A stretch of 64,000 nucleotides of DNA from Blastococcus aurantiacus (lineage in GTDB: Bacteria > Actinomycetota > Actinomycetes > Mycobacteriales > Geodermatophilaceae). Both the position numbers and the translations under genes were made by a program. How positions within the stretch are numbered: position 1 is the stretch's first letter; the number at the start of each line of letters is the position of its first letter. Of this stretch, positions 14,074 to 18,139 are shown piece after piece. The DNA lies in NCBI RefSeq assembly GCF_900102425.1, contig NZ_FNBT01000004.1:372001-436000 (forward strand). Direction: 5' to 3'. The notes under the pieces were generated by a model. It was not told the DNA's origin, ran no database searches, and saw only the letters and a list, made by a program, of their open reading frames with translations.

Positions 14074-15039
14074 TCAGGCGGCGGCCGTCACCGACAGCCG
14101 GTGCCAACTGCGCACCCGGCCGGGGCGCACGGCGGAGCAGGTCAGGTGCGCGGCCTCGGGTGAGGGCCGGCTCTCGACGACGACGGTGACCGGCCCCGTG
14201 GGCCCGGCCAGCGTCACCTCCCACCGCTCGACGTCGGGTCCGGGTTCCGGCAGCCGGGTCGCGCTCAGGGGAGCGAGATCGTCGATGCCCAGCAGGCCGA
14301 GCTCCTCGCGGGCGCCGTGCTGGGCGGCCTGCACGTGCGCCGGCAGCCCGGCCCGGCCGCGCAGCCAGGCGAGCGCGACCTGTCCCTGCTCGTGGGCGGC
14401 CACCAGCAGCCCGCCGTCCCCGGGCACCTGCCCGTAGTAGAAGCCGTGGGGGAGGACGACGACGTTGGCGGCGAACCGGTCACCACCGAGGTGGCTGCAC
14501 TCCCACACGTCGGCGGGGCCGCGCGCGGGCATGGCGCGGGCCAGGGGCCGGCCCCGCAGCGCGCAGCAGGCGTCGTGCCCGCCGTGGGTGCACACCAGGT
14601 ACGTCGGGCGCTCGGTCCGCTCGCCGACCGACCCGTCCCAGGGTGCGGCGAGCAGGTCGGCGTCCGAGGTCCGCACCGACCACCACAGGCCCTCGCGGCC
14701 GGGTCGGCCGTCGGCGTAGGCCCAGCGCCCACCCGCGTCGGACAGCCGGTCGCCGGGGCGGCGCACCAGCAGGACCCGGACGTCCTCCCGGCGGGCCCGC
14801 TCGGCCAGCAGCGGCGCCACGCGGGCGTCGAAGCGCGACTGCAGCAGCGCGTCCCGTCCCCACGGCCCGGGCTGCTCGACCAGCAGCCACCGCTGCACGG
14901 GGGAGGCCGTCGCCATGCCGGAGTCGCCCCGCGCCAGGGCCTGCACCGAGCAGCGCGCCGCGTCCAGCCGGCCGGCCGGCCGGGCCGGGAGGTCGGGGCG
15001 GCAGAAGTCGTCGGCGGGTGGGAGGTCCGCGGTGGTCAC
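14074..15039 (-). CDS. Sucrase/ferredoxin-like family protein
   Basis: A 321-aa protein of the sucrase-ferredoxin family (thioredoxin-like fold that in relatives carries a 2Fe-2S centre). The cysteine-rich core VCTHGGHDACCALRGRPLA is followed by ECSHLGGDRFAANVVVLP. Both are conserved landmarks. The name comes from an early plant link and no enzyme activity is proven in bacteria. The GTG start overlaps the stop of the cupin oxygenase by 4 bp, so it is the third gene of a tightly coupled operon; an electron-transfer role for the oxygenase is a reasonable guess but unproven. Confidence 0.8.
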   Translation of the reverse strand: MTTADLPPADDFCRPDLPARPAGRLDAARCSVQALARGDSGMATASPVQRWLLVEQPGPWGRDALLQSRFDARVAPLLAERARREDVRVLLVRRPGDRLSDAGGRWAYADGRPGREGLWWSVRTSDADLLAAPWDGSVGERTERPTYLVCTHGGHDACCALRGRPLARAMPARGPADVWECSHLGGDRFAANVVVLPHGFYYGQVPGDGGLLVAAHEQGQVALAWLRGRAGLPAHVQAAQHGAREELGLLGIDDLAPLSATRLPEPGPDVERWEVTLAGPTGPVTVVVESRPSPEAAHLTCSAVRPGRVRSWHRLSVTAAA

Positions 15040-16349
15040 GGCCCGGGGGTCAGGGCATCGGGGGTCAGGGCATTGGAGGTCAGGGCGTCGGGGACCACCG
15101 CGACCGACTCGGTGACCAGCCGCCGGGCGAGGGCCAGCCGGTCGTCGGGTTCCAGGCCGGGCAGGTCGCCGACCTTCAGCTCGCCGACGGCCAGCAGCTC
15201 CGCGAGGGCCGGGCGCACCGAGGCCGGGAAGGAGTGCGTGCGGCGGCCGCCGATCAGGGTCACCCGCCCATCGTCCTCGTCGCGCAGCAGGCAGCGCAGG
15301 CGCGGGCGGAGTCGGAGCACGGTGTCGGGGCCGAGCGCCGCGGCGGCGGTCGCCTGCGCCAGGGGAGCGACCGGCTCGGGGCGCACCTGGGACCAGGTGC
15401 GGGCGCGGAGCCGCTCGGCCACCTCGGCCGGGTCCACCCGTGCCAGCCAGTCCCGGAGGCCCTCGACCACTGCCGTGACGTCGTCCCGCAGACCGTCGGG
15501 ATCGGCGAGGTCGACGCCCAGGGGGAGGGAGCCCCGCAGGTCCGGGTCCTCGGCGGCCAGGGTCCGGACCAGGTCCAGGGCGGCTTCGGCCGCGCCCCAG
15601 CGGGTGACCGAGTGGACACCGATGGTCAGGTGGGCGCTGATCTCACCGAGCGCGGTGGCCGAGTGCAGGAAGCCGCGGGGGAGGTAGAGGACGTCGCCGG
15701 GCTCGAGGACGGCGTCGATCACCGGCTCGCGCGTGGCGGCGGCGGCCACCTCCTCGCGGCGGTCGGTCCACACCTGGGTGCGCAGCGGGTCGCGGAGCAC
15801 CGGCTCGTGGATGGTCCAGTGCTTCTGACCGGCCACCTGCAGCACGAAGACGTCGTGGACGTCGTAGTGGGGGTCGAACCCGCGGGAGGACGGCGGGGTG
15901 ATGTAGGCGTTGACCTGCGTGGGGTGGCCCAGGTCGGCGGCCAGCTGGTCGGCGAACTCGATCAGCGGCGGCCAGAGCCGGTGCAGGCCCTGCAGGACCA
16001 CGGTGCTGCCGTCGGCGAACAGCCGCAGCACGGCGTCCGAGCTGACCTGGTCGGCGATCTCGGCGCCCGCGCCGCCGGAGGTGGTGAAGCGCGCGGTGTC
16101 GACGACCTGGCCGTCCTTGGCGATGCGCAGGAACGGCGTGCGCAGCCCGCGGCGGGAGAGCAGCTCGTCGACCGCGGCGAGGTCGAGGAGGTCGGTGAAG
16201 GTGTTCCCGGTGTCCGCGGCGCGGGTCAGCAGCGGGTGCCGGCCCCAGTGGTCACGGGCGAAGACCTCGGGGTCGGCGTTCGTGCAGCGCCGCAGGGCCG
16301 GGCGGAGCAGCTGCTCCGCCCGGCCCCGCGGGGCAGGGCTCTCGCTCAG
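15036..16349 (-). CDS. Cupin_4/JmjC-type 2-oxoglutarate oxygenase (ribosomal-oxygenase-like)
   Basis: A 437-aa protein if translation begins at CTG 16349. The jelly-roll core has the Fe(II) triad H161-x-D163 (in PHYDVHD) and H229 (in GFLHSA), with K176 in GQKHW as probable 2-oxoglutarate ligand. This pattern is that of YcfD/MINA53/NO66 protein hydroxylases. The conserved N-terminal region, including DHWGRHPLL, is encoded upstream of the first ATG/GTG/TTG in frame (GTG 16031), which would remove 106 residues. CTG 16349 overlaps the repeat-peptide stop by 4 bp (CTGA), just like the GTGA junctions elsewhere, so a CTG start is preferred. Target: a ribosomal protein, or the adjacent peptide. Confidence 0.8.
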   Translation of the reverse strand: MSESPAPRGRAEQLLRPALRRCTNADPEVFARDHWGRHPLLTRAADTGNTFTDLLDLAAVDELLSRRGLRTPFLRIAKDGQVVDTARFTTSGGAGAEIADQVSSDAVLRLFADGSTVVLQGLHRLWPPLIEFADQLAADLGHPTQVNAYITPPSSRGFDPHYDVHDVFVLQVAGQKHWTIHEPVLRDPLRTQVWTDRREEVAAAATREPVIDAVLEPGDVLYLPRGFLHSATALGEISAHLTIGVHSVTRWGAAEAALDLVRTLAAEDPDLRGSLPLGVDLADPDGLRDDVTAVVEGLRDWLARVDPAEVAERLRARTWSQVRPEPVAPLAQATAAAALGPDTVLRLRPRLRCLLRDEDDGRVTLIGGRRTHSFPASVRPALAELLAVGELKVGDLPGLEPDDRLALARRLVTESVAVVPDALTSNALTPDALTPGP

Positions 16350-16627
16350 GCCGAACCGTCCGCACCGCCGTCGGCGCCACCGTCGGCACCGCCGTCGGCG
16401 CCCTTGTCGGCGCCACCGTCAGCGCTCCCGTCGGCACCGCTGTCCGCGCCGCCGTCGGCACCGCCGTCGTGGGTTCCGGGCGTGCCACCACCGGAGCCGG
16501 CATCCATCGGACCCTCGTGGCCGTTGTCGGCGCCGGTCGCGCCGCCGCCGACGCCGCCGTCGGCACCGCTGTCGGCGCCGCCGTCCGCGCCGCCGTCGCC
16601 GCTGGTCATCTCGTCGTCCAGAGCCAT
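16346..16627 (-). CDS. Small Gly/Asp/Ala-repeat protein, coupled to the cupin oxygenase
   Basis: A 93-aa acidic protein. A short leader (MALDDEMTSG) is followed by repeats of the type DGGADGGADSGADGG, a middle segment with HEGPMDAGSGGGTPGTHD, and a second repeat block to the C-terminus. Almost all residues are G, A, D or S, with no cysteine. The ATG at 16627 has a strong ribosome site (GGAGGAG). A longer frame up to 16708 exists but lacks such a site. The stop overlaps the oxygenase start by 4 bp. A leader plus Asp-rich repeats next to a 2OG oxygenase could be a modified peptide (RiPP-like) or a disordered metal-binding protein; no function is known to me. Confidence 0.65.
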   Translation of the reverse strand: MALDDEMTSGDGGADGGADSGADGGVGGGATGADNGHEGPMDAGSGGGTPGTHDGGADGGADSGADGSADGGADKGADGGADGGADGGADGSA

Positions 16628-16813: not shown

Positions 16814-16829
16814 GCGAACAGGTGTTCGA
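16814..16829. promoter_or_regulatory. LexA/SOS box upstream of dinB
   Basis: GCGAACAGGTGTTCGA matches TCGAAC-N4-GTTCGA with one mismatch in the first base. It ends 14 bases before the dinB start, and a possible -10 box TACGGT lies at 16796-16801, so bound LexA would block the transcription start. It is also about 190 bases before the divergent repeat-peptide operon. Confidence 0.75.
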
Positions 16830-16843
16830 ACGGAGGAGGCGGA

Positions 16844-18139
16844 GTGGGCGGGCGCGCGCAGGGCTGCACCGTGCTGCACGTCGACATGGACGCGTTCTTC
16901 GCCAGCGTCGAGGTGCGCCGGCACCCCGAGCTCGCCGGCACCCCGGTGATCGTGGGCGGGGCGGGCAACCGGGGCGTGGTCACCTCGGCCACCTACGAGG
17001 CGCGGCGCTACGGCGTGCACGCGGCCATGCCCACCGCCCGCGCGCTGCGGCTGTGCCCGACGGCGACGGTGCTCCCCGGCGACCTGTCCCTCTACGCCGA
17101 GGTGTCCCGGTCGGTGATGGCCCTGTTCCGCTCGATCACCCCGTTGGTGGAGCCGCTGAGCCTGGACGAGGCGTTCCTCGACGTCTCCGGCGCCGGCCGC
17201 CGGCTGGGCGACCCCGCCGAGATCGGCGAGTACCTCCGCGCCCGGGTCTTCGACGAGCAGGGCATCACCTGCTCGGTCGGCGTGGCGGGCAGCAAGTTCG
17301 TCGCCAAGCTGGCCTCCACCTCCGCCAAGCCCGACGGAATGCGGATCGTCCGCCCGGCCGAGGTCATGGACTTCCTGCACCCGCTGCCGGTCGGCGCGCT
17401 GTGGGGCGTGGGCCCCAAGACCGAGGAGCAGCTGCTGCGGCTCGGCATGCGCACCGTGGGAGATCTCGCGCACGTGCCGGCCAGGACGCTGCAGCGGGCC
17501 CTGGGTCCGGCCGCCGGCGCCCACCTGCACGAGCTGGCCTGGGGGCGTGACCCGCGCCGGGTGGTCCCCGACGAGCCGGAGAAGTCCACCGGCCACGAGG
17601 AGACCTTCGGCACCGACGTCGACGATCCAGTGGTCATCCACCGCGAGCTGCTGCTGCTCTCCGAGCGGACGGCGGGCCGGCTGCGCTCGGGCGGCTGGCT
17701 GGCCCGGACGGTCAGCATCAAGGTGCGCTTCGCCGACTTCGCCACGATCACCCGCAGCCGCACCCTCGACGTCCCCACCGACGTGGGACAGGAGCTCTAC
17801 GACACCGCCCGGGCCCTCTTCGACGCGCTGGGGCTCGACCGGGCCCGCATCCGGCTGGTGGGCGTGCGCGCGGAACGGCTGGTGGAGGCCGGGTCCGCGC
17901 CCCAGCAGCTGGAGCTCGGCGCCCGCGAGCACGGCCGGCGGGACGCCGAGCTGGCGGCCGACCGCGCCGCCCGCCGGTTCGGAGCCGGCGCGGTGCGCCC
18001 GGCCACCCTGCTGCACCGCGACGGTCGCCCGGGGCGCGCCGGGCGGCCCTCCGCAGCCCGGCCGGCAGCCGGCGGACGGACCCCCGGGAGCACCCGCGGG
18101 GCCCCCGATCGGCCGGCCGCGGGAAACCCGGAGGGGTGA
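16844..18139 (+). CDS. dinB: DNA polymerase IV (DinB, Y family)
   Basis: A 431-aa Y-family polymerase. Catalytic residues are D14 in HVDMDAFFASVE and D108-E109 in PLSLDEAFLDVS. The helix-hairpin-helix thumb region (WGVGPKTEEQLLRLGMRTVGD) and the little finger domain (HEETFGTDVDD onward) follow. The C-terminal 60 residues are Arg/Pro/Gly-rich and probably disordered. GTG start with GGAGGAGG about 5 bases upstream. The SOS box directly before it predicts induction by DNA damage, together with dnaE2. A clamp-binding peptide may be GSAPQQLELG near residue 345. Confidence 0.93.
   Translation: MGGRAQGCTVLHVDMDAFFASVEVRRHPELAGTPVIVGGAGNRGVVTSATYEARRYGVHAAMPTARALRLCPTATVLPGDLSLYAEVSRSVMALFRSITPLVEPLSLDEAFLDVSGAGRRLGDPAEIGEYLRARVFDEQGITCSVGVAGSKFVAKLASTSAKPDGMRIVRPAEVMDFLHPLPVGALWGVGPKTEEQLLRLGMRTVGDLAHVPARTLQRALGPAAGAHLHELAWGRDPRRVVPDEPEKSTGHEETFGTDVDDPVVIHRELLLLSERTAGRLRSGGWLARTVSIKVRFADFATITRSRTLDVPTDVGQELYDTARALFDALGLDRARIRLVGVRAERLVEAGSAPQQLELGAREHGRRDAELAADRAARRFGAGAVRPATLLHRDGRPGRAGRPSAARPAAGGRTPGSTRGAPDRPAAGNPEG

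Follow-up and report, generated by a model that had tools for sequence, protein, structure and literature searches.

According to the passages that describe them, PbsQ and BipG are JmjC-type ornithine hydroxylases in biphenomycin-type clusters for ribosomally synthesized and post-translationally modified peptides (RiPPs), where ornithine lies in a short macrocyclic core and the partners are MNIO, arginase, radical SAM and protease enzymes (PMC12257519; PMC12707348). Proteins that fuse Pfam family PF08007 to a domain like a RiPP recognition element (RRE) are noted in an update of RRE-Finder, with bacterial homologues in RiPP-like contexts; the passage on these JmjC-RRE proteins names no precursor, product, Asp repeat or sucrase/ferredoxin-like (Suc_Fer) partner (PMC12710340). 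In a graspetide cluster, SmaO/SmaX carry out Asp beta-hydroxylation in the N-terminal part of the precursor, followed by conversion to aminomalonate, in a passage that mentions no tandem repeats (PMC13097080). JmjC-type hydroxylation of RiPP precursors is thus already known, and PF08007-RRE fusions have been mentioned. Here, we describe a locus in a stretch of 64,000 nucleotides from Blastococcus aurantiacus (the window), in which an Asp-rich repeat peptide, a JmjC_2 oxygenase and a Suc_Fer-like protein are encoded by three overlapping genes. We read it, with a probability of about 0.62, as a small RiPP-like system whose oxygenase binds the peptide and hydroxylates its Asp repeats.

The locus would share with PbsQ and BipG a JmjC-type 2-oxoglutarate (2OG) enzyme that hydroxylates a ribosomal precursor in a RiPP cluster. 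Compared by description, it differs from them in having an Asp-repeat core and only one oxygenase with a thioredoxin-like ferredoxin (TLF)-type protein. It resembles the RRE-Finder proteins in the fusion of a PF08007 protein to an RRE-like domain and, again by description, SmaO/SmaX in the enzymatic Asp beta-hydroxylation of a RiPP precursor that we propose for it. The oxygenase also has a family likeness to MINA53, NO66 and YcfD (JmjC_2/ROX), which, by the titles of their structure entries, target His or Arg residues in ribosomal proteins, whereas the present oxygenase has a gene for a dedicated acidic peptide directly upstream. An earlier note on this DNA knew of no described system of this make-up, and we likewise found no description of the Asp-repeat peptide, its oxygenase or the triad in the open-access literature, most subscription papers lying outside that scope. 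To our knowledge, none of MINA53, NO66 and YcfD lies beside a repeat peptide. The features of the locus are as follows.

16627..16346, minus strand: peptide gene, an open reading frame (ORF) for a precursor-like peptide of 93 aa
16349..15036, minus strand: oxygenase gene, 437 codons, Pfam JmjC_2 PF08007
15084..15338, minus strand: winged-helix/RRE-like C-terminal domain of the oxygenase (predicted), about residues 338-422
15039..14074, minus strand: Suc_Fer-like gene, thioredoxin-like [2Fe-2S] ferredoxin type, Pfam PF06999
16346..16349, minus strand: CTGA overlap, in which TGA ends the peptide gene and CTG, judged from the sequence, likely begins the oxygenase gene

The gene arrangement given in the earlier note holds, with all three genes on the minus strand and 4-bp overlaps at both junctions (CTGA between peptide and oxygenase, GTGA between oxygenase and third gene). 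A GGAGGAG stretch lies 5' of the peptide ATG.

The pairing of peptide and oxygenase is far beyond chance. An initial survey found a repeat ORF just 5' of the oxygenase in 53/53 loci (L001-L053, some species twice). For a linkage count, duplicates were removed by oxygenase sequence, a 225-bit cut was chosen after seeing the score gap, and four loci in which the gene or its upstream DNA is cut or split were left out. A peptide was counted when an ORF ended -400 to +60 nt from the oxygenase start and its last 40 residues were at least 65% G/A/D/S/T and at least 12% D; control ORF starts came from the same loci, minus ORFs starting <900 nt from the oxygenase on its strand. Such a peptide lies upstream of 103/105 distinct oxygenases above the cut, compared with 1/833 control ORF starts; at L116 and L117, the two exceptions, a different acidic peptide occupies that position. 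Homologous oxygenases without the peptide, which the earlier note had named as evidence against its proposal, are thus limited to 2/105 within the clade, but distant JmjC_2 genes below the cut mostly lack it: one of 15 passes (L072, a truncated gene at 223 bits), while 7/15 have another short Asp-bearing peptide beside them.

A profile built from 12 peptides and run over 296 genomes of the class, with up to 18 candidates scored per genome, finds 48 places in 44 genomes. All 48 are on the same strand as an oxygenase and -1 to 407 nt upstream of it, and genomes of this set without the oxygenase gave no match (Fisher P about 1e-44, a statistic that ignores relatedness). Nine of the 53 genomes whose oxygenase scores 219 bits or more gave no profile match. 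Five of these nine do have an Asp-rich peptide, of DGGAD type in L082 and L118 and of other types in L119, L121 and L125, which escaped the profile; two are L116 and L117, one (G153) has its locus cut by a contig end, and in one (G200, L126, below the 225-bit cut) no peptide was seen. Outside the class, an Asp-rich peptide is found at 11/12 loci with upstream DNA, the twelfth (L160) having a different repeat. The order of peptide, then oxygenase, is constant, including beyond the class within the phylum. The presence of the peptide beside such oxygenases across actinobacteria, which the earlier note proposed to look for, is thereby supported, and a short precursor-like gene next to a peptide-modifying enzyme type, a trait of RiPP systems, is present in both counts.

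The oxygenase matches JmjC_2 over the cut-off (E 3.5e-29), and, among the solved structures listed as matches, those of the protein hydroxylases NO66 and MINA53 come closest to it. The intact HxD...H triad and 2OG lysine described earlier are borne out, as the predicted catalytic residues H161-x-D163, H229 and K176 are invariant in 18/18 diverse homologues. The predicted fold of the C-terminal domain is a winged helix of PqqD type and, among the fold families listed, matches PqqD, PbtF, TbiB1, ThcOx, McbB and heterocyclase domains. Similarity to the PqqD family was not detected at the level of sequence (no Pfam PqqD match; hhalign probability 0.3%). From this model, the domain looks like a precursor-binding RRE.

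A composition count confirms that the 93-aa peptide is dominated by G, A, D and S (35 G, 18 D, 17 A and 6 S; computed isoelectric point about 4.05), with a short leader and two repeat blocks: an N-terminal MALDDEMTS is followed by two DGGA-type blocks around a different middle stretch. The peptide has no known family in Pfam or NCBIfam. In the order of the window's species and its close kin, most peptides start with M[A]LDD[DE]DM-T-[ST] or similar and continue with a variable number of EGPADGGA..GTPG.HDGGADGGADGG units. Outside the class, they start with [DE]-E-[DE]-I-x-T or similar and have cores of DADGTDGDGTDGTDGD, DADASDADASD or TDTDTTDSTDTD; D-x-T-D-like cores also occur within the class (L119, L121, L125, L129, L130, L134 and L135). 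Asp is present in 103/103 cores, at 17.5%, and in the distant L151 core Gly and Ala are nearly gone and Asp is kept. Whether a conserved leader precedes variable repeats was a check proposed in the earlier note. The repeats do vary and a simple leader pattern is found in most lineages (78/103 peptides), but not in all: other lineages have short divergent N-termini, and several have only six or seven residues ahead of the repeats. Two peptides of other make-up were also observed. L116 and L117, related genomes inside the DGGAD clade, encode DDPEL.GADL.EDQ..G.GPT.EPGA and are without a Suc_Fer gene. In L160, outside the class, an ORF with many ADGTDQGVxGGTYGPRDA-type repeats precedes the JmjC_2 gene, and no Suc_Fer gene was seen.

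Core type follows the enzyme. In a tree reduced from 128 to 98 oxygenases, without rows whose profile match covered <300 positions, the DGGAD core requires 2 changes vs 28.5 when shuffled, and the D-x-T-D core 4 vs 13.2. Adjacent repeat units differ at 48% of third codon positions vs 4% of first and second positions (689 pairs, 50 identical), the latter rate being biased low because units were picked by amino-acid pattern. The 48% at third positions shows that the repeats did not arise by recent duplication of DNA.

The third protein matches Suc_Fer-like PF06999 (E 4.2e-17; the sole PF06999 match in the genome), has a predicted thioredoxin-like [2Fe-2S] ferredoxin fold and carries C150-x8-C159 and H183-L-G-G-D187. 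It shares its family, C-x8-C and its fold with the Apd1/Aim32 thioredoxin-like ferredoxins, for which the relevant passage gives a Cx8C...HX3H cluster motif (PMC8482512). Across 113 Suc_Fer loci, Cx8C is found in 112 and the first His is kept, whereas Asp replaces the second His in 106, Cys in 5 and Glu in 1, and in one this position is cut off. Bis-His ligation is thus not kept and the full Cx8C...HX3H ligand set is absent, which suggests an unusual cluster ligand set in these proteins. The gene lies downstream of the oxygenase in 91/103 loci with enough DNA, and the 12 loci without it come from several families (L061, L071, L076, L078, L079, L080, L096, L098, L102, L116, L117 and L120). The earlier idea of a 2Fe-2S partner therefore agrees with the predicted fold and with most loci, but not with these 12; the core pair is peptide and oxygenase, commonly accompanied by the ferredoxin-like protein as an accessory.

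Upstream of the overlap, the oxygenase frame stays open for only 69 nt (to 16418), and its earliest standard start is a GTG at 16031, codon 107. With no ATG, GTG or TTG before this codon, translation probably starts at the CTG within CTGA. CTG occupies the overlap position in 58/103 loci, 41 of which have no other NTG start nearby, and conserved CTG initiation coupled to peptide termination is likely from these sequences. This rare start is apparently kept through a group of genomes in these oxygenase genes. At many loci the two genes are separated by a gap rather than overlapping, and the peptide is still kept. Fusion of peptide and oxygenase by a -1 frameshift is disfavoured, because only 23 open codons precede the CTG in the overlap frame of the window.

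The peptide is very probably the substrate of the JmjC_2 oxygenase that would be made right after it from the same mRNA. This reading draws on the class of the enzyme, its invariable pairing with the peptide, a core that changes in parallel with it, the persistence of Asp and the RRE-like domain. The C-terminal winged-helix domain would capture the peptide, probably through the acidic N-terminal DDEM/DEDI-x-T where present, and the enzyme would then progress along the array and hydroxylate its repeated Asp residues with the help of Fe(II), O2 and 2-oxoglutarate, the beta carbon being the most likely site. Asp beta-hydroxylation is the likeliest chemistry, and we hold it with moderate confidence. 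The thioredoxin-like [2Fe-2S] protein, where present, may keep the oxygenase iron reduced or join a later redox step. The proposal that the Asp repeats are the substrate thus gains from the linkage, the constant Asp and the RRE-like fold, while Asp hydroxylation and metal binding are parts of it that we infer.

Our likeliest guess for the product is a metal-binding poly-hydroxyaspartyl peptide. Hydroxyaspartate is a good metal ligand, hence the idea of a metallophore or metal buffer. Two results speak against such a role. No canonical IdeR-like box (TTAGG-N9-CCTAA) or Zur-like palindrome, for which we used what we take to be the consensus strings, was seen in 103 upstream stretches, some of them misplaced by too-early calls of the peptide start. 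Likewise, no transporter recurs in at least 4/46 loci, in a survey whose crude gene caller found Suc_Fer in only 20/46; the same survey showed no recurring leader peptidase or exporter. Neighbour groups that do recur at this level are the oxygenase, the Suc_Fer gene, Geodermatophilaceae synteny and antisense frames.

Among the alternatives, the one that survives best, although we consider it unlikely, keeps the peptide as substrate and changes the chemistry: Asp might undergo oxidative cross-linking, cyclisation, desaturation or decarboxylation, or the residues hydroxylated might be Gly, Ala, Ser or Thr. The repertoire of 2OG enzymes in RiPP pathways is wider than hydroxylation, as in the title of a 2025 paper on 2OG-dioxygenase-catalysed RiPP macrocyclisation (cited in PMC12710340), and a 2Fe-2S-type partner in 91/103 loci hints at extra redox chemistry. 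The nearest solved structures, however, are hydroxylases, and in distant cores other residues can largely stand in for Gly and Ala, but not for Asp.

It is less probable still, and in our view quite unlikely, that the oxygenase hydroxylates a ribosomal or other protein and that the acidic repeat peptide is its inhibitor, chaperone or regulator. Three observations point this way and weigh against hydroxylation of the peptide: the oxygenase family matches ribosomal oxygenases, some peptides are nearly leaderless, and distant JmjC_2 genes often lack such a peptide. By contrast, such repetitiveness, and a repeat type that changes with the enzyme tree, would be unexpected of a regulator, and 10 of the 12 loci without the third gene keep an Asp-rich peptide. 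Finally, a peptide that serves only translational coupling, or a spurious ORF in GC-rich repeat DNA, would suit the CTGA and GTGA overlaps, the low-complexity sequence and the likely CTG start, but is highly improbable given that synonymous sites vary while amino acids are kept (the position 1/2 rate being partly built in by the choice of units), that the N-terminal motif recurs outside the class, and that the peptide persists at the many loci with a gap.

Upstream of the peptide gene, the window contains two further features.

16815-16828: SOS-like box CGAAC-N4-GTTCG, between the peptide gene and the divergent dinB-like gene
16844..18139, plus strand: divergent gene that we take to be dinB-like

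An SOS-like box is found upstream in 23/103 loci. SOS control of the peptide operon was considered and set aside: since 22/23 of these loci are from Geodermatophilaceae or the same family, and the window has the divergent dinB-like gene, the box probably serves that gene, and LexA control of this polymerase gene through it is likely. A mobile origin was also rejected, with no match among 50,697 phage records and plasmid matches only at <60% identity.

More distant JmjC_2 genes have other peptides beside them. Seven loci of one actinobacterial family (f31; L127, L133, L136, L137, L139, L140 and L141) encode a short conserved peptide of the type MDPIEVEVEDL.EVTSRD[IV]TAGGDSDGTDSSSDFI, ending like GGDSDGTDSSSDFI, together with an S9 prolyl oligopeptidase (Pfam-tested in L136) and an FhuF_C 2Fe-2S protein (Pfam-tested in L127 and L133), and would form a second, RiPP-like cluster. 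Beside the distant genes L073, L126, L131, L132, L142 and L143, no Asp-bearing peptide was seen. On a Streptomyces clavuligerus plasmid (L174:4826-8173), a 48-aa peptide with IAD-x-DP-x-DP repeats lies near a JmjC_2 gene, an S9 peptidase and an ABC transporter gene. On a plasmid of Streptomyces sp. (L175:4500-5100), an unannotated short ORF ending TPADGGGTGKGDGND lies directly 5' of a cupin gene and may be another precursor. Asp-bearing precursor peptides may thus accompany JmjC_2 enzymes more broadly.

A bolder version of our proposal, which we put forward tentatively and regard as doubtful, is that actinobacteria make a ribosomal poly-(beta-hydroxyaspartyl) peptide with up to dozens of hydroxyaspartates 2-4 residues apart. 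It would be an encoded iron- or calcium-binding polymer, with the 2Fe-2S protein as reductase for maturation or release of bound iron, and the JmjC_2/FhuF_C lineage would be a parallel invention.

If hydroxylation of the Asp repeats is correct, Actinomycetota would possess a modified-peptide system that is undescribed, compact and widespread, its three overlapping genes encoding the enzyme, the substrate and a putative reductant. Such a system would tie a JmjC_2/ROX-type oxygenase to a dedicated substrate, offer a model for iterative hydroxylation along a repeat and suggest a biological source of poly-hydroxyaspartate. It also gives reason to seek missed upstream peptide genes beside JmjC_2 genes that are annotated only as cupin domain-containing protein.
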